DNA from: Spirochaetes bacterium ADurb.BinA120
GTDB lineage: Bacteria; Spirochaetota; UBA4802; UBA5368
Assembly: GCA_002069125.1 (NCBI GenBank)
Contig: MVZN01000012.1
Span: 1 to 63,519 of the forward strand
Direction: 5' to 3'
DNA length: 63,519 bases
Shown here: positions 20,321 to 28,878 of the stretch, one piece after another
Numbering within the stretch: the stretch's first letter is position 1
How the letters are laid out: each line of letters begins with the position of its first letter
Position numbers and translations under genes: made by a program
Notes under the pieces: model-generated
What the model was told of the DNA's origin: nothing
Databases searched by the model: none
The model's input: only the letters and a program-made list of their open reading frames with translations

Positions 20321-21931
20321 ATGAAATCCAAAACCGGCAATACCCCCATAGTCATTTACGACACCACTCTAAGAGACGGGGCACAGACCTTCGGCATATC
20401 CTTTTCCCTGCACGACAAAATCCGCATAGCGCATGAGCTGGACCGCCTGAAAATCGATTATATAGAGGGAGGATGGCCCGGCTCGAATCCGAAGGACGAT
20501 GTCTTCTTTACCGAGATACGCAAATCGGACATAGGCCACGCCAGAATCGCGGCGTTTGGTTCTACGAGGCGCCCCCGCACGAAGGCCGGAGACGACCCCT
20601 TTCTCAAATCGCTGGCGGGATCGGGGGCGGACACCATCACAATCGTGGCAAAGACATGGGACTTTCACGTAAAGGAAGCCCTCGGCATAACGCTTGCGGA
20701 AAATTTCGAGCTTATAACCGATACCGTCGCCTACCTTAAGGACCGCGGATTCGAGGTCTTCCTCGACGCGGAGCATTTCTTTGACGGCTTCAGGGCAAAT
20801 CCCGATTTCGCATTGTCGGCGATTAAAAAGGCCGAGGAGGCCGGCGCCGACATGCTCGTGCTATGCGATACCAACGGGGGCACGCTCCCACATGAGATAG
20901 AGTCGGTAACCCGCGAAGTCGTTCGGTCGGTCGGAAGGCCCGTCGGAGTTCATTTTCACAACGATGCCGGGCTCGCCGTCGCAAATTCAATAGCCGCTGT
21001 AACGGCCGGGGCCCGATCGGTACAGGGCACCATGAACGGCTACGGGGAACGCTGCGGCAACTGCGACCTTACGAGCTTTATCCCGAACCTTGTGCTGAAG
21101 ATGAAGATGCCGTGCGCAGCGGCGTCCGCGCTCGAGCACCTGACGGAGGTCAGCCGCTACGTAAGCGAGATCGCCAACCTCGCCCACAACGAGCGGGCGC
21201 CATATGTAGGCGACAACGCCTTCGCCCACAAAGGCGGCATACACGTCTCCGCGCTTAAAAAGGACACGTCCACCTACGAGCACCTCGACCCGGCGCTTGT
21301 AGGAAACCGCAGAAAGGTCCTGGTTTCGGAGCTCGCGGGAAAGAGCAACATCGAGTTAAAGGCGAGAGAGCTGGGCATAGAACTAAAGGATGAGGCGGCC
21401 CTGCCTGCGAAGGTGTTAAGGCAGATAAAGGTCCTGGAGGACCAGGGCTTCCAGTTCGAGGCGGCCGAGGGATCGTTCGAGCTTATCATACGCAGGGCCA
21501 CCGGCGAGTACATCCCATTCTTCAGCCTCAAAGGGTTCCGGGTCATCACCGAAAAAAGCGAAAACAGGCCAACGAGCTGCGAGGCGACCATCAAGGTGGA
21601 GGTTGGCGGAGCCGTGGAACACACCGCCGCAAACGGCGACGGCCCGGTCGAGGCGCTCGACAACGCCCTCAGGAAGGCGCTCGAGAAGTTCTACCCGGAG
21701 ATTGCGGAGATACAGCTTACGGACTACAAGGTGCGCGTCCTCGACGAAAAGGCGGGGACCGGGGCGCCGGTAAGGGTCCTCATTGACCAAAAGCGCCGCT
21801 CCTCACATTGGGGAACTGTCGGCGTTTCGGAGAACATCATAGAGGCTTCCTGGCAGGCCCTGGTCGACGGCATCGAATACATGCTCTACAGAAGGAGCTT
21901 CGGCGAAAGGCAAAAGGCCCCCGATGGATGA
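20321..21931 (+). CDS. cimA: (R)-citramalate synthase
   Basis: The 536-residue protein belongs to the LeuA-like DRE-TIM group: YDTTLRDGAQTFGISFSL near the N-terminus, EGGWPGSNPKD typical of citramalate synthase, HFHNDAGLAVANS, and NGYGERCGNCDL. A C-terminal regulatory LeuA dimer domain follows from about residue 390. It condenses pyruvate and acetyl-CoA to citramalate, the entry to threonine-independent isoleucine synthesis known in Leptospira and others. It is first in a dense plus-strand run; murI overlaps its last 8 bases. Confidence 0.92.
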   Translation: MKSKTGNTPIVIYDTTLRDGAQTFGISFSLHDKIRIAHELDRLKIDYIEGGWPGSNPKDDVFFTEIRKSDIGHARIAAFGSTRRPRTKAGDDPFLKSLAGSGADTITIVAKTWDFHVKEALGITLAENFELITDTVAYLKDRGFEVFLDAEHFFDGFRANPDFALSAIKKAEEAGADMLVLCDTNGGTLPHEIESVTREVVRSVGRPVGVHFHNDAGLAVANSIAAVTAGARSVQGTMNGYGERCGNCDLTSFIPNLVLKMKMPCAAASALEHLTEVSRYVSEIANLAHNERAPYVGDNAFAHKGGIHVSALKKDTSTYEHLDPALVGNRRKVLVSELAGKSNIELKARELGIELKDEAALPAKVLRQIKVLEDQGFQFEAAEGSFELIIRRATGEYIPFFSLKGFRVITEKSENRPTSCEATIKVEVGGAVEHTAANGDGPVEALDNALRKALEKFYPEIAEIQLTDYKVRVLDEKAGTGAPVRVLIDQKRRSSHWGTVGVSENIIEASWQALVDGIEYMLYRRSFGERQKAPDG

Positions 21932-22721
21932 GCGCCCCATAGGCATATTCGATTCCGGGGTTGGGGGCCTTACCGTATGCAAGGCCATTCGCGACCTGTT
22001 GTCGTCCGAAAATATACTCTATTTTGGGGATACGCTTCGCTTCCCCTACGGCACACGCTCCATCGACACCGTAATCCGCTATTCACGCGAGATAGCCGAT
22101 TATCTCGCCGGACGCGGCGTGAAGATGATCGTGGTGGCCTGCAACACCTCCTCGGCCGCGGCCCTGGACATACTCAGAAGCGAATACCCTTTCCCGGTGG
22201 TGGGCGTCATCGAGGCCGGCGCCCGCGCCGCATGCGCCCGCGCCTCCGGAGGGACAGTCGGCGTCATAGCTACCCGCGCCACCGTGAACAGCGGTTCATA
22301 TGTCCGCGAGATACACAAAATCTCCCCGCGCATGAGGGTCATCCAGCGGCACGCCACGATATTCGTTTCCCTCACCGAGGAGGGCTGGATCGACGACGAG
22401 ATCACGCGCCTCACCGCCAGGCGCTACATCCAGGACATGTACGACGACGGGGTCCGAAACCTCATTCTTGGATGCACGCACTTCCCCCTGCTTAAAAAGG
22501 CGATCACCGACGTGTATCCGGACATGGACCTCATCGACACCGGGGTCGAAATCGCCCGCGAGGTGCGTTCCATTCTTGGCGAAAAAAGCCTTGAAAATAG
22601 GGAGGGCGCCGGCGATATTGAGCTGTACGCCTCGGACATTACCGATACCATCCAGCGGCTCAAGTCCGTTTTTTTCGGCGACAACGGTTCCGAGATAAAA
22701 AAACTGATTATTCCCGGCTGA
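21924..22721 (+). CDS. murI: Glutamate racemase
   Basis: This 265-residue cofactor-free racemase supplies D-glutamate for peptidoglycan. FDSGVGG lies at 9-15, the first catalytic Cys is in VACNTSS (Cys73) and the second in LGCTHFPLL (Cys184); the length is standard. It overlaps cimA by 8 bases and is followed after 5 bases by the SurA-like gene, so it seems to be coexpressed with envelope biogenesis genes. Confidence 0.95.
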   Translation: MDERPIGIFDSGVGGLTVCKAIRDLLSSENILYFGDTLRFPYGTRSIDTVIRYSREIADYLAGRGVKMIVVACNTSSAAALDILRSEYPFPVVGVIEAGARAACARASGGTVGVIATRATVNSGSYVREIHKISPRMRVIQRHATIFVSLTEEGWIDDEITRLTARRYIQDMYDDGVRNLILGCTHFPLLKKAITDVYPDMDLIDTGVEIAREVRSILGEKSLENREGAGDIELYASDITDTIQRLKSVFFGDNGSEIKKLIIPG

Positions 22722-22726
22722 GGGCA

Positions 22727-23686
22727 ATGAAACTGATCGCGCGTGCGTCACTCTACGTTTTAATCGTACTGACCGCTGCAACCGCTTCGCATTCCTGGGA
22801 ACCCTTCGACAGGGTAATCGCGGTTGTAAACGACAGACCCATCGTGGAAAGCGAGGTGGCCGGAAGGCTCGACCGTCTGCGCCAGCGGAAAAACGTGCCC
22901 GCGAACAGGCTGGCCTACGAGAGGAGCCGGTTGCTCGATAGGTTCATCGAAGATTCCATCGTGCTGCAGGAGGCCGAACAGCAGTCGATCGTGGTAAGCG
23001 ACGAAAAGGTGACAAACCACATCAAGAAGCTCATGGCGCGCATGAACATCACCTCCATGGATGATTTCAAAAAACGTGTGGAAAAAGTGGAAAACCTCCC
23101 CTTCGACGAATACCGGGAAGACGTAAGAAAATCGCTAATCACCGAACAGGTCATGTCGCTCGCCATAGGCGTTACACCGCCCTCCAGAAAGGAGGCCATG
23201 GAATGGTATAACGCCAACAAGGCGAAGCTCGGCTTCGAAATCAACGTCAAGCACATCCTCATAAGGCCGAAAAACCCCTCCCTCGCCGAGGAAAAGCGCG
23301 TAATCGCCGAGATCAACGCCCTGCGCCAGCGCATTGTTCGCGGCGAGCCGTTCGAACAGCTCGCCGCGCAGCATTCGGAGGATCCAGGATCCGCCAAAAA
23401 GGGCGGCGCCATCGGATGGATGTCGCTTGCCGAGCTCGACCCCTATTTCGCCAACCAGGTCTTCCGCATGGCGGACGGACAGCTCTCCGGCGCGATCAAG
23501 TCGGGGTTCGACTACCACCTGGTGAAATTCCTCGGGAAACGCCCGGTCACCTTCGATTCCGTAGAGGACCGAATCGTCGGAATGCTCTTTCAACAAAAGC
23601 TCTCCGAGCAGTTCTCCAAATGGGTCATTCAGCGCCGCAGGGAGTCCGAAGTCATAATCTACATGGAAGATTACGTAAAGGCGTAG
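22727..23686 (+). CDS. SurA-like periplasmic peptidyl-prolyl isomerase/chaperone
   Basis: The 319-residue protein has a signal peptide (cleavage near SHSWEP, about residue 24). It continues with a SurA-type N-terminal chaperone region (FDRVIAVVNDRPIVESEV) and one parvulin domain at about 170-270 containing VKHILIRPK, AAQHSEDPGSAKKGGAIGWM and the AELDP segment. It should help fold outer-membrane proteins such as the barrels in this window. One parvulin domain instead of two is common outside Proteobacteria. The stop is immediately followed by the GTG start of the next gene. Confidence 0.88.
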   Translation: MKLIARASLYVLIVLTAATASHSWEPFDRVIAVVNDRPIVESEVAGRLDRLRQRKNVPANRLAYERSRLLDRFIEDSIVLQEAEQQSIVVSDEKVTNHIKKLMARMNITSMDDFKKRVEKVENLPFDEYREDVRKSLITEQVMSLAIGVTPPSRKEAMEWYNANKAKLGFEINVKHILIRPKNPSLAEEKRVIAEINALRQRIVRGEPFEQLAAQHSEDPGSAKKGGAIGWMSLAELDPYFANQVFRMADGQLSGAIKSGFDYHLVKFLGKRPVTFDSVEDRIVGMLFQQKLSEQFSKWVIQRRRESEVIIYMEDYVKA

Positions 23687-25180
23687 GTGGACGCGTTGAA
23701 AATCGACGCCCTCTTGTATATCGACGACGGCCTGACCGATACCGACCTGACGGTAGGAGGCGAATTTACGCCCGACACGCTGCGATCGGCTCTCACTGCG
23801 TTATCCGCCTTCGACAACATTCGCCTTGCCGTTCCGCCCGGCTACGGCGGAAAGCTTCTTGGAGCGCCCGATCTCATCGTCCGAAACGACCGGGACGACA
23901 TTAGCTTCTGGAAGAGGCTTTTATCCGAAAGCGCCGCCGGGCACGTCGTTCTGGTGTACGCCGATTCGCCCTTTCTCGACCCCGAAATAATCAAAGACAT
24001 GCTCGATGTACACCTGCGCTACCAGGCCGAATTCACCTATTCCGAAAACCTTCCCCGCGGCTGCTCCTGCGAGATCATCTCCCGCGAGCTCGTCAAATCG
24101 GTGCCCGAATCGGACGGCAACATGCTGCCGCTTTCCGAGGTGGTGCGCTCCAATATCAACCAGTTCGACGTGGAGCTCTATTACCGCGACCCCGATATCA
24201 GAGACAAACGCCTCTCCTTCCGTTCGGGGGACCGGAGGGAGCGCATGATCATGGAAAACATCATCTCTGTCGCCGGAGGAAGGCCGGCCTACGCGAGAAT
24301 CGCCGACATCATCGCCGCCAACCCGGAGGTGCTTCACGTTGCGCCATCCTATGCGGAAGTCGAGCTTACCGGGCGCTGCGATCTCGATTGCGTTTTCTGT
24401 TATCGGAAGAGGCTTGCCTCCGAGCACGGCGACATGCCGATTCCCGTTTACGAACGGCTGATCGATGGACTCTCGTCCTTCGGGCTGCCCTACTCTATAT
24501 GCCTCGGCGGCTCCGGGGAACCTCTCATGCACCCATCGTTCTATGAGCTCGCCTCGCGCTCCCTACGGGAGGGCCTCCTTAAAAATCTCGTGATCGAAAC
24601 CAATGGACTTCTGGCCGGCGAGAACCTCGCCTCCTTCGTTCGCTCGAGCGGAGATTCGAGGCTTCGCATCATCGTCAACATCAACGGCATCGACGGCGCG
24701 ACTTATTCGAAGCTTCACGGCATGGACCATTTCGAACGCGTCCGGGGAAATATACTGGCCCTGCGCGAGGCCGTTTCGGGCCCCGAGGGCCTCTATGTCC
24801 AGATACTCAAGATAAACGAGACCGAGCCGTTTTTGGATCAGTATTACGACGCCTGGGAGAAAAGCGGCGTTCCCATCATATTGCAAAAGCAGAACACCTA
24901 TCTCGGACTCATAGAGGACCGCCGCTACAGCGACCTCTCGCCGCTCGAACGCATACCCTGCTGGCATCTGCAGCGCGACTGCTACATACTCTCCGACGGC
25001 CGCGTCGCCTTCTGCAAACAGGACGTTGACGGAGTCTCGGCTGCGGGGTCGCTCGTCACCTCGACGCTTGGGGAGATCTGGTCGGCCTCGCTTCAGGCAT
25101 TCACCAGTAACTACCGGGGCGAGCTTTCGCTTCGCCCCGACTGCCGCTCCTGCGACGAGTGGTACACCTTCAATCTTTAG
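23687..25180 (+). CDS. Spiro-SPASM radical SAM protein with nucleotidyltransferase-like N-terminal half
   Basis: The 497-residue protein has a radical SAM core starting near 225 with the cluster motif CDLDCVFC (Cys231, Cys235, Cys238), followed by GGSGEPLMHP and IVNINGIDGATY. A C-terminal SPASM region has Cys in PCWHLQRDC, AFCKQDVDG and CRSCDEW. This architecture is the spiro-SPASM family known from spirochaetes, function unknown. The first 220 residues resemble an SpsF/CMP-sugar nucleotidyltransferase fold: VYADSPFLDPEIIKDMLDVH and LPRGCSCEIISREL parallel the next gene's TGDNPFTDPEY and LPLGTAVEIIKREAL. The start is a GTG directly after the surA-like stop. It probably acts in glycan or sugar-nucleotide modification; that is inference. 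Confidence 0.85.
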   Translation: MDALKIDALLYIDDGLTDTDLTVGGEFTPDTLRSALTALSAFDNIRLAVPPGYGGKLLGAPDLIVRNDRDDISFWKRLLSESAAGHVVLVYADSPFLDPEIIKDMLDVHLRYQAEFTYSENLPRGCSCEIISRELVKSVPESDGNMLPLSEVVRSNINQFDVELYYRDPDIRDKRLSFRSGDRRERMIMENIISVAGGRPAYARIADIIAANPEVLHVAPSYAEVELTGRCDLDCVFCYRKRLASEHGDMPIPVYERLIDGLSSFGLPYSICLGGSGEPLMHPSFYELASRSLREGLLKNLVIETNGLLAGENLASFVRSSGDSRLRIIVNINGIDGATYSKLHGMDHFERVRGNILALREAVSGPEGLYVQILKINETEPFLDQYYDAWEKSGVPIILQKQNTYLGLIEDRRYSDLSPLERIPCWHLQRDCYILSDGRVAFCKQDVDGVSAAGSLVTSTLGEIWSASLQAFTSNYRGELSLRPDCRSCDEWYTFNL

Positions 25181-25203
25181 AATAACTTTCAGGTCAAAAC
25201 ACC

Positions 25204-25986
25204 ATGGTTGTAAACGGAGTCGTTAACGGCAAAAAGCTCAAGCCGCGCGTGGTCGCCGTCATCCAGGCGCGCATGCGCTCAAAGCGCCTGCCCGGGAAGG
25301 CCATGCTGGATCTTGCCGGCAGGCCGCTCCTTGCGCATGTCATAGACCGCGCCCAGCACATCGAGGGAGTCGACGCTGTCGTCGTTGCCACGAGCATAGG
25401 CGAGGAGAACGCGCCCCTTATAGAGCTTGCCCGCTCCATGGGCGCGGATGTGTTCGTCGGCTCGGTGGATAATGTGCTCGAACGTTACTATCTGTCTGCT
25501 GTCGAATTCGGCGGGGATTTCATCGTCCGCGTAACGGGCGACAACCCCTTTACCGACCCGGAATACGCCTCCATGGCCGTCGAGATAGCCATGGAATCCT
25601 CCGCGGACCTCTGTTCGCTTAGCAGGCTTCCGCTGGGAACGGCCGTCGAAATCATCAAGCGTGAGGCGCTGGAGGAGGCCTACCGTCTGCACGACAAGCC
25701 ATACCACCGCGAGCACGTCACCCCTTACATAAAGGAGCATCCCGAACTTTTCCGAATAGAGAGGCCCGCCGCGAACATCAGAAACCCCTATCCGAATCTG
25801 CGCCTGACGGTCGATACAGCCGATGACTTCAGGCTCGCCTCAGCCATCTACGACGCGCTTTATCAGGGAGGGATCATTCCCCTTGCGGAGATTATACAGT
25901 ACCTAAAAAAACACCCCGGGCTTCTCGAGCTTAACGCAGGGGTGACACAGCGTCCCATGAGCCACGCGGAGAATCCGAATGCCTGA
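25204..25986 (+). CDS. SpsF-like cytidylyltransferase family protein
   Basis: The 260-residue protein belongs to the SpsF/CMP-KDO-synthetase-like group. It has the nucleotide-binding signature VAVIQARMRSKRLPGKAML at about 16-34, VVVATSIGEEN, VRVTGDNPFTDPE and HREHVTPYI. SpsF-type proteins are thought to activate sugars for surface glycans. It follows spiro-SPASM by 23 bases and overlaps the PseG-like gene by 8 bases. The NTP and the sugar cannot be told from the sequence. Confidence 0.85.
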   Translation: MVVNGVVNGKKLKPRVVAVIQARMRSKRLPGKAMLDLAGRPLLAHVIDRAQHIEGVDAVVVATSIGEENAPLIELARSMGADVFVGSVDNVLERYYLSAVEFGGDFIVRVTGDNPFTDPEYASMAVEIAMESSADLCSLSRLPLGTAVEIIKREALEEAYRLHDKPYHREHVTPYIKEHPELFRIERPAANIRNPYPNLRLTVDTADDFRLASAIYDALYQGGIIPLAEIIQYLKKHPGLLELNAGVTQRPMSHAENPNA

Positions 25987-26890
25987 GGCGCCCATCGCCA
26001 TAATCAGCGGATGGGACGGCGAACTCGGCCGGGGACATATCCAGCGCATGGTATCCCTCCTCGATCACCTCGTACACAGCGCCGGCATGCCGGCCGTCCT
26101 TATAGCCGAACGCGCTCCCGACTTCCTTCCCGAAAACCTTCGTCGATACGTCAAACCCGCGCCCGGGGAACGCGTCGCCCTCTTCGTGCGCGATATGCGC
26201 GATTCCACTGTCGAGGAGATAGGCCGGCTTCGAAAAAGGGCCCCCGTCCTCTGTATCGACGACCTGGGACCGGGGCGCGGGCTCGCCGACCACGCCCTGG
26301 ACCTTCTCCCCAATCCCGGCCGCCCGGAAAGCCCCCCCGACGGCGGGCTATTTCTCCACGGCTACCAGTTCCGCGCCTCCCTGGCCGCGCTTGGAAACGC
26401 GGCGATTCCCAAAAGGCTCGATTGCACAATTTATGCCGGCGCTAAGCCCAGCGAGGAGGATGTAAAGCGGCTCCTCTCCATCGTCCCGAAAGGCTCGAGC
26501 TTTGCCGTATTTCGGGGACACGGCTCATTTTTACGCGAGGGGCCCGCGAAGAAGGCCATAGCGCAGGATGACTACGCCCGCCTGCTTCTCTCCTCGAGGC
26601 TCTTCTTCTCACACTTCGGCATCGCACTGTACGAGGCCGGCGCGGCATCATGCATACCCGTAGCCCTCAACCCCACGGAATACCACTCGCGCCTGTGCGG
26701 GATTGCCCCGAAAGAGCTTGGAATCGTGAACCTGGGGACGCACGACTCCTTCGACAGCACGGCAGCCGCCGCCATCATCGCCCGATTGATGAAGGAAAAT
26801 CCCGCCGGCGAGGCGTCCGCTCCGGACATCCTCGCGTCCGTTCGAGAAAATCTTGACAGGTTCTCCTCCCTGCTCAGAACTATGATCTGA
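25979..26890 (+). CDS. PseG-like protein of the GT-B fold
   Basis: The 303-residue protein starts with GWDGELGRGHIQRM, where GRGH at 17-20 matches the GxGHxxR signature of PseG. PseG is the UDP-sugar hydrolase of pseudaminic acid synthesis. CIDDLGPGRGLADHALDLLP and the later FFSHFGIALYEAGAASCIPV fit the two halves of the GT-B fold. Its neighbour is SpsF-like, as PseF and PseG are paired, but no PseB, PseC or PseI is in the window. It may therefore belong to a different nonulosonate or glycan pathway. GGAG precedes the ATG. The assignment is to the fold and family only. Confidence 0.68.
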   Translation: MPEAPIAIISGWDGELGRGHIQRMVSLLDHLVHSAGMPAVLIAERAPDFLPENLRRYVKPAPGERVALFVRDMRDSTVEEIGRLRKRAPVLCIDDLGPGRGLADHALDLLPNPGRPESPPDGGLFLHGYQFRASLAALGNAAIPKRLDCTIYAGAKPSEEDVKRLLSIVPKGSSFAVFRGHGSFLREGPAKKAIAQDDYARLLLSSRLFFSHFGIALYEAGAASCIPVALNPTEYHSRLCGIAPKELGIVNLGTHDSFDSTAAAAIIARLMKENPAGEASAPDILASVRENLDRFSSLLRTMI

Positions 26891-26946: not shown

Positions 26947-28878
26947 ATGGGCGACAACGTCGTATACAAGATCCTCAAAGAGCATCTCCTGGAAGGCGAG
27001 CCGGCGCCGGGCGCTGAGATCGGAATACGCATCGACCAGACGCTCACGCAGGACGCAACCGGAACCATGGCCTATCTCCAGTTCGAGGCCATGGGCATCC
27101 CGCGCGTCAAGACCGAAATCTCCGTATCCTACGTCGATCACAACACCTTACAGACCGGCTTCGAGAATTCCGACGATCACCGATATCTGCAAACCATGAA
27201 CTCCAACTACGGAATACATTACTCGCGCGCCGGAAACGGCATCTGCCATCAGGTGCATCTCGAACGATTCGGAAGGCCCGGGGCCACACTGCTTGGCTCC
27301 GATTCACACACCCCGACCGGCGGCGGAATCGGCATGATCGCCATAGGCGCCGGGGGGCTGGACGTAGCCGTGGCCATGGGCGGCGGCCCCTTCTACCTCA
27401 CCAGCCCCCGTGTGGTGAACGTGCGCCTGAACGGCAGGCTTAGGCCGTGGGTAAGCGCCAAGGACATCATCCTCCATGTGCTCTCCATCCTGAGCACCAG
27501 GGGGAACGTAGACGCCGTAATCGAGTATACCGGCCCAGGCGTCGGAACACTTTCGGTGCCCGAGCGCGCAACAATCACCAACATGGGCGCGGAGCTGGGG
27601 GTAACCACCTCCGTCTTCCCCAGCGACGGCCTTACGCGCGCCTTTCTCAAGGCCCAGGGGCGCGAGGCCGTCTGGCGGGAACTCCTCCCCGATCCCGATG
27701 CCGTTTATGACCGGATTATCGAGATCGACCTTGGAGGGGTTGTACCGATGGTCGCCTGCCCACACTCTCCCGATAATGTGGAGAGGGTATCGTCGCTCAA
27801 AGGAATGAAGGTCGATCAGGTGGCCATAGGAAGCTGCACCAACTCCTCCTACCGCGACCTCTCCGTGGTCGGCGCCGTATTGAAGGGGCGCAAGGTGCAT
27901 CCCGACCTGAGCCTGGCGATCGCGCCGGGTTCGAGGCAGGTGTTCGAGATGATAGCGCGCGACGGCGTGCTGGCCGATATGATCGCGGCCGGCGCCCGCA
28001 TCATGGAATCCGCCTGCGGCTTCTGCATCGGCGCGGGCCAGGCCCCAAAAACAGGAGGGGTGTCGCTTCGCACGAACAACCGCAATTTCGAGGGCCGCTC
28101 CGGAACCGCCTCGGCACAGGTCTACCTTGTAAGCCCAGAGACGGCCGCCCTTTCGGCGCTCGTCGGCGAACTCGTGGACCCGCTCGATATGCGCCCCGAA
28201 GACTTCCCTGCCCTCGTCCAGCCCGACTCCTTCATAATCGACGACAGCATGATCATCCCGCCTTCGGACGTCGAAAAGCCCATCTTCCGGGGTCCCAACA
28301 TCGGCGAGCCTCCGTATACGGAACCCCTTTCGGATTCCCTTCGTGGAATCGTCCAGCTCAAGGTGGGCGACAAGATCACCACTGACCACATCATGCCCGC
28401 GGGCGCGCGGCTCATCTACCGTTCCAACATCCCGAAATACTCGGAATATGTATTCGAGGGTGTCGATCCATCCTTCTCATCCCGCGCCATGGAGGCGAAG
28501 GCGCAAGGCCTGTACACTGCCGTACTCGGAGGGCACAGCTACGGCCAGGGCTCCAGCCGCGAGCACGCGGCCATCTGCCCCATGTACCTCGGCGTACGAA
28601 TCGTCATGGCCAGGTCCTTCGAGCGAATCCACGCCGCAAACCTGGTTAACTTCGGAATTCTGCCCCTCGTTCTTTCGAACGGGGCGGACTATGATGAAAT
28701 CAGGCAGGGCCAGGAGTTCGAGGCGGCCGATCTGCGTTCGCGCGTAGCGGGCGGAGAGGGTATACGCGTTCGCATCGGCGGCAGGGATTACGATTTCGAA
28801 CTGCCGGTCACGCCGCGCCAGCGGAAGATACTCCTGGAAGGCGGTCTTTTAAATTACACGCGCTCGCGTATGCGGTGA
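26947..28878 (+). CDS. Aconitate hydratase
   Basis: The 643-residue protein is an aconitase of the shorter bacterial type. The [4Fe-4S] ligands are Cys297 (GSCTNSSYRD), Cys357 and Cys360 (ACGFCIGAG). LLGSDSHTPTGGGIGM lies in domain 1 and the C-terminal swivel domain carries GGHSYGQGSSREHAA and ARSFERIHAANLVNFGILPL. It interconverts citrate and isocitrate; the family also contains homoaconitase and isopropylmalate isomerase, but the motifs and single-chain layout favour aconitase. It has GCCGAAAGATG context at its start, 56 bases after the PseG-like gene. Its 3' end overlaps the convergent HNH gene by 30 bases. Confidence 0.93.
   Translation: MGDNVVYKILKEHLLEGEPAPGAEIGIRIDQTLTQDATGTMAYLQFEAMGIPRVKTEISVSYVDHNTLQTGFENSDDHRYLQTMNSNYGIHYSRAGNGICHQVHLERFGRPGATLLGSDSHTPTGGGIGMIAIGAGGLDVAVAMGGGPFYLTSPRVVNVRLNGRLRPWVSAKDIILHVLSILSTRGNVDAVIEYTGPGVGTLSVPERATITNMGAELGVTTSVFPSDGLTRAFLKAQGREAVWRELLPDPDAVYDRIIEIDLGGVVPMVACPHSPDNVERVSSLKGMKVDQVAIGSCTNSSYRDLSVVGAVLKGRKVHPDLSLAIAPGSRQVFEMIARDGVLADMIAAGARIMESACGFCIGAGQAPKTGGVSLRTNNRNFEGRSGTASAQVYLVSPETAALSALVGELVDPLDMRPEDFPALVQPDSFIIDDSMIIPPSDVEKPIFRGPNIGEPPYTEPLSDSLRGIVQLKVGDKITTDHIMPAGARLIYRSNIPKYSEYVFEGVDPSFSSRAMEAKAQGLYTAVLGGHSYGQGSSREHAAICPMYLGVRIVMARSFERIHAANLVNFGILPLVLSNGADYDEIRQGQEFEAADLRSRVAGGEGIRVRIGGRDYDFELPVTPRQRKILLEGGLLNYTRSRMR

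Follow-up and report, generated by a model that had tools for sequence, protein, structure and literature searches.

The spiroSPASM protein of spirochaetes joins a front half that is related to the CMP-sugar synthetase SpsF, and is a predicted pseudo-nucleotidyltransferase, to a radical SAM/Twitch back half from which the CX3CX2C motif of the radical SAM superfamily has been lost on many occasions, the Twitch cysteines being kept. The gene occurs in a conserved operon with spsF and spsG, and its distribution among genomes matches those of flagellin, NeuB and Maf-type transferases. Nonulosonate glycosylation of flagellin is the likely pathway; the fuller explanation, in which the cassette serves CMP-nonulosonic acid synthesis and flagellin glycosylation with spiroSPASM in an accessory role, is favored on balance and with less confidence. 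On the best reading, the lineages concerned include T. pallidum and T. denticola. The literature search found no paper mentioning TIGR04321 spiro-SPASM and none naming a nonulosonate pathway for spirochaetes.

The Gene Cassette of the Window

The DNA analyzed here (the window, 63,519 nucleotides) is a single contig from a draft spirochaete genome of 3.5 Mb. Five genes on the + strand almost abut between positions 21924 and 26890, namely a glutamate-racemase-like gene (21924-22721), a gene for a PpiC/SurA-like periplasmic chaperone with SurA_N and Rotamase domain matches (22727-23686), the spiroSPASM gene (23687-25180; 497 aa), a gene for a putative SpsF-like CMP-sugar (CMP-nonulosonate) synthetase (25204-25986; 260 aa; CTP_transf_3, 111 bits) and one for a PseG/SpsG-like UDP-sugar hydrolase (25979-26890; 303 aa). 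An aconitase-like gene is next at 26947; it and the glutamate-racemase-like gene, like other neighbors without a profile-search match, were named from reading their translations. A preliminary description had taken the spiroSPASM, SpsF-like and PseG-like genes for a compact, overlapping cassette, and the reading frames agree with this, the last two overlapping by 8 bases. The start codon of spiroSPASM is a GTG directly behind the PpiC/SurA-like gene, which lies immediately 5' of spiroSPASM in four other loci as well (L050, L051, L052, and L065) and is probably co-transcribed with it.

Residues Q21, R23, S26, R28, K32, R94, R109, T111, D113, E170, H171, T202, D204, and D208 are invariant in 67 SpsF relatives, and the SpsF-like protein of the window, in which the CTP-binding loop and the catalytic aspartates are all present, is apparently an active CMP-sugar synthetase. 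The PseG-like protein alone gave no family match in the profile search and its alignment no match in the PDB; among 15 close relatives, PseG (TIGR03590) was the only family matched, by 9 of them (best E = 1.6e-5, below the cut-off). An hhalign match (E = 1e-39) joins it to the long SpsG proteins found in other spirochaetes, and it carries the GxGHxxR motif (GLGHxxR, residues 17-23), which is 98% conserved.

A Conserved Operon That Often Reaches a Flagellar Gene

Across the phylum the association of the three cassette genes is far above chance, as expected of the unit that had been proposed, and SpsF lies in the flank of 67 of the 79 spiroSPASM loci with enough flank. A long form of the operon (40 loci over the phylum) runs in the order spiroSPASM, gene X (30 loci), SpsF, SpsG with a C-terminal methyltransferase, ATP-grasp ligase (28), amidase (26), GerM-like (24), and FlaA (23); the product of flaA, a flagellar sheath gene, matches PF04620 with 247 bits. 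The short form, found in the order of the window's genome and in lineage f11, comprises SurA-like, spiroSPASM, SpsF, and SpsG genes, with neither the methyltransferase nor gene X. At 14 loci SpsF and SpsG form a single fused protein. In the probable T. pallidum genome a single ORF of 862 aa (L037:11528-14113) holds SpsF, SpsG, and the methyltransferase. The ATP-grasp ligase of one long operon (L033:3800-5431) has a LAL_C2 domain and could form an amide on an amino sugar, and a RelA/SpoT-TPR protein follows flaA at the operon's end in 12 of the 40 loci (L036, L057, L059, L071, and others).

Gene X (L033:8139-9089, - strand; L037:10437-11540, + strand; 35 other loci) is absent from the window's genome; most long operons have it between spiroSPASM and spsF. 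The unannotated product is about 330 aa long, and its AlphaFold2 model resembles polypeptide GalNAc-transferases, which make up all of the top 50 PDB matches, so that a role as protein O-glycosyltransferase is possible. Gene X was rejected as another SpsF-like domain, for which hhalign returned nothing, and was excluded from the core cassette as it is also found in Borrelia-like and non-flagellated lineages that have no such pathway.

Two of the loci come from genomes that we take to be T. pallidum (L037) and T. denticola (L068); a protein from a genome named T. putidum (L117) is 92% identical to that of L068. Each of these two presumed genomes has one CTP_transf_3 gene, the SpsF of the cassette. 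The gene order of L037 fits TP0284_285, TP0286_287, and TP0288_289, which are listed as merged genes (PMC3265458), and by synteny the cassette can be traced to TP0284-TP0289 of T. pallidum.

The SpsF-SpsG pair has a counterpart in B. subtilis, where spsG and spsF are parts of the CMP-legionaminic acid pathway (PMC7439481). Both the sps set (SpsM, C, D, G, E, F) and the spirochaete set combine this pair with NeuB/SpsE in the genome; the spirochaetes add spiroSPASM and often, elsewhere in the phylum than in the window, a methyltransferase fused to SpsG, and their likely target is flagellin, whereas that of B. subtilis is the spore crust.

The Front Half of spiroSPASM

The window protein is a member of NCBIfam TIGR04321 (369.4 bits over model positions 68-509; curated cut-off 250), whose proteins are confined to spirochaetes as far as tested. 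The family has so far been a name only; the present analysis adds its pseudo-SpsF half, its operon, the radical motif's loss and a proposed link to flagellin. The protein was modeled by AlphaFold2 with a pLDDT of 95 and a pTM of 0.91.

Motifs shared in the same order by the radical SAM protein and its SpsF-like neighbor had been noticed at residues 90-150, and they are real: D93SPFLDPE and L122PRGCSCEIISREL are collinear with D113NPFTDPE and L142PLGTAVEIIKREAL of the SpsF-like protein, BLASTP between the two proteins alone gave E = 3e-7, and the SpsF-like protein itself matches positions 20-226 of the spiroSPASM model (E = 5.8e-7). The similarity reaches beyond this stretch, over approximately residues 1-212 (23687-24322). 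An hhalign comparison of 80 spiroSPASM N-termini with 67 SpsF proteins encoded at these loci aligned 220 collinear columns with a probability of 99.6% (E = 2.6e-23), and E stayed above 0.5 in every control (the radical SAM half against SpsF, five N-termini with shuffled columns, SpsG, and gene X). With the family profile, residues 30-221 match the cytidylyltransferase 6oew (E = 4e-8), and in Foldseek the AlphaFold2 model matches the same structure with a TM of 0.68 of the target; profile comparison and fold match both uphold the nucleotidyltransferase (GT-A-like) fold suggested at the outset. Residues 1-212 thus share fold and collinear alignment with the SpsF/KdsB/NeuA synthetases (CTP_transf_3) and differ from them in the missing CTP loop and in being fused to a radical SAM unit.

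The suspicion that this domain is inactive was well founded. The positions of the CTP-binding loop (QxRxxSxRLxxK) are kept in 0-4 of the 80 N-termini, the equivalent of K32 being a gap, so that the loop is lost in essentially all members; the equivalents of R109, T111, E170, and H171 of SpsF are lost too, and those of the catalytic aspartates persist unevenly (D113, here D93, in 61/80; D204 in 31/80; D208 in 13/80). The combination of CTP loop and catalytic aspartates that marks an active CMP-sugar synthetase is hence not found in this half, which, having lost the loop, is a putative pseudo-nucleotidyltransferase homologous to SpsF over its whole length. The sugar-side loop PxG...E is retained (P123 in 77, G125 in 78, and E129 in 59 of the 80); P95, P123, and G125 are kept in 76-78 members, and D93 and E129 are less strict. 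From this retention we infer that the domain may bind the sugar side without CTP chemistry.

The Radical SAM/Twitch Half and Its Possible Substrates

The fusion to radical SAM/SPASM was confirmed by matches to PF04055 (47.7 bits) and PF13186 (31.5 bits), the auxiliary site being of the Twitch type, with four cysteines where a full SPASM would have seven. All parts lie on the + strand: the barrel comprises residues 216-365 (24332-24781), with the GEP motif at 277-279; CX3CX2C, located in the alignment of 80 members, is intact in the window as C231, C235, and C238 (24377-24400); and the Twitch/SPASM cysteines are C425, C443, C486, and C489 with a spacing of 18/43/3 (24959-25153). The closest solved sequence is BtrN (4m7t; E = 5e-22 with the family profile, over the barrel), the radical SAM dehydrogenase of butirosin synthesis, whose fold the AlphaFold2 model matches at 0.69 of the target in Foldseek. 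Both have a single 4-Cys Twitch cluster, but BtrN has no nucleotidyltransferase half, and it depends on a radical cluster that is missing from 30 of 80 spiroSPASM proteins.

The likeness to BtrN does not fix the substrate of spiroSPASM, since the other close folds among the top Foldseek matches, SkfB, SuiB, ChlB, and anSME, belong to enzymes with peptide substrates. The protein might accordingly be a protein-modifying SPASM enzyme or adaptor whose target, flagellin or some other flagellar protein, is bound and then modified or passed to a glycosyltransferase, the pseudo-SpsF half only docking on SpsF. Two points speak for this reading, the synteny with flaA and the disappearance of the radical cluster from an otherwise conserved protein, which suits an adaptor; we consider it rather unlikely, as the best sequence match, BtrN, has a small sugar-like molecule as its substrate and the same single Twitch cluster, and as no peptide gene is seen in the cassette. 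A RiPP maturase was also considered and set aside, no precursor-peptide ORF being seen near the cassette among the listed ORFs of at least 80 aa.

Distribution With Flagellin, NeuB and Maf

Flagellin was found in 351 and spiroSPASM over the cut-off in 290 of 393 genomes, counts that are not phylogenetically independent, the absences amounting to about four independent lineages. Flagellin-less genomes, among the rows listed, gave weak radical SAM cross-matches only, none of them having spiroSPASM. Both are missing from f49, which we guess to be Sphaerochaeta-like (as f15 is presumably Brachyspira-like), from f45 g96 and from f50 g158/g162, and f45 and f50 each hold both the complete and the empty state. 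NeuB shares this distribution, exceptions being few: it is nearly universal among carriers of spiroSPASM, G025 and G303 being carriers in which no NeuB was found. Maf-type genes (PF01973) are present in 2-5 copies in all 43 spiroSPASM-positive genomes examined and in none of 6 negative ones (agreement 49/49). The window's own genome has four PF01973 genes and a NeuB with a SAF domain, encoded away from the other nonulosonate genes (L073:9478-10515). G371 and six f49 genomes have NeuB but neither flagellin nor spiroSPASM, which points to another use of nonulosonates. The flagellar connection, a guess in the preliminary description, gains support from these profiles together with the flaA synteny. 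In f39, presumably Borrelia-like, flagellin is present and spiroSPASM, NeuB, and Maf are absent from the genomes tested, so the pathway would not be needed for every spirochaete flagellum.

The same profiles bear on whether the cassette decorates another surface polymer (an outer-membrane glycan, capsule or S-layer-like glycan), the correlation with flagella reflecting general loss in reduced or non-motile lineages. SpsF, PseG, and NeuB-type genes commonly serve surface glycans, and NeuB is kept in some non-flagellated genomes. This explanation is nonetheless improbable: the gene set is retained in the 1.14 Mb genome of probable T. pallidum, a species that has no LPS, the Maf-type transferases follow the same pattern, and the co-loss of the cassette is selective, since gene X, a member of this operon, persists in the lineages that are non-flagellated or Borrelia-like.

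Recurrent Loss of the Radical Motif

CX3CX2C is intact in 50 and gone in 30 of the 80 members. In these 30, many different residues occupy the cysteine positions between conserved flanks, and CX3CX2C does not occur elsewhere in these proteins either. Of the 80 proteins, 79 have the full set of four Twitch cysteines, as do 29 of the 30 motif-less ones; in a further 80, partly named, genomes, the motif is absent in 5, including T. putidum and T. vincentii, and the Twitch cysteines are present in all 80. Motif-less proteins include the probable T. pallidum and T. denticola copies and two from the order of the window's own genome (L078 and L084). With the motif columns left out of tree building, 13 changes of state were counted on one tree (bootstrap 13-15; supported branches force at least 9) and 15 on another; such counts alone cannot separate gain from loss, and loss is the natural direction because CX3CX2C defines the radical SAM superfamily. 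SpsF is not nearby in 9 of 30 motif-less and 3 of 49 motif-bearing loci, with too few independent pairs for a test.

It is highly improbable that the missing motif reflects decay toward gene loss, or assembly or alignment error, with all functional members being radical enzymes: motif-less members are somewhat more divergent overall, but loss recurs over supported branches and is seen in complete genomes and named isolates, the conserved flanks make the columns unambiguous, and both groups share 36 positions with a conservation of at least 80%, among them E278/P279 in the SAM-binding motif, and keep the Twitch cysteines. This pattern of loss and retention indicates that the universal role of spiroSPASM cannot be radical chemistry. 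A precedent, by name, for SPASM proteins without a radical cluster is the pseudo-SAM/SPASM family TIGR04347, named for haloarchaea; it is a separate family, to which the window protein scores 31 of the 525 bits needed while keeping its cluster.

A Model for Flagellin Glycosylation

In the proposed pathway, SpsG/PseG would release a 2,4-diamino sugar from UDP, NeuB, encoded elsewhere in the genome, would condense it to a nonulosonate, SpsF would charge the product (legionaminic/pseudaminic-type) with CMP, and Maf-type transferases would transfer it onto flagellin. The pseudo-SpsF domain of spiroSPASM most likely recognizes the nonulosonate or pairs with SpsF, and would present the substrate to the BtrN-like barrel. 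A barrel with intact CX3CX2C, such as the window's, probably oxidizes or otherwise tailors the sugar; where the cluster cysteines are gone, the protein would persist in a role other than radical chemistry, serving as binding partner, scaffold or adaptor. A tie of spiroSPASM itself to flagellin, as distinct from one of SpsF/SpsG, is presumptive.

The flagellins of T. denticola bear a glycan of 450.2 Da, and their glycosylation is reported to be essential for filament assembly (PMC9481697); FlaB1 of L. biflexa has putative O-glycans where the sheath docks (PMC13144727). A di-N-acetyl nonulosonate residue in which one acetyl is exchanged for methoxy-trihydroxyhexanoyl has a calculated mass of 450.18, equal to that of the T. 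denticola glycan. A structural study of this glycan reportedly found a nonulosonate with a methoxy-trihydroxyhexanoyl group, which, if right, fits both a nonulosonate and the methyltransferase of the operon. To our knowledge T. denticola is the only organism with a characterized glycan of this kind, and the missing radical cluster of its probable spiroSPASM (L068) argues against radical chemistry being essential to it.

As to the precise role of spiroSPASM, we tentatively suggest a primarily non-radical one, in which a dead nucleotidyltransferase, an often dead barrel and an invariant Twitch iron-sulfur site may form a scaffold or sensor that is obligatory, across the spirochaetes, for glycosylating flagellin with nonulosonate; a tailoring or adaptor function would be the alternative. 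The preliminary description as a whole is supported, and the repeated loss of the radical SAM center was unanticipated there. A compact gene set is thereby nominated for the glycosylation of spirochaete flagellin, and spiroSPASM offers a rare case in which the signature radical center has been lost many times from a protein that remains under constraint, which makes a non-catalytic function directly testable.
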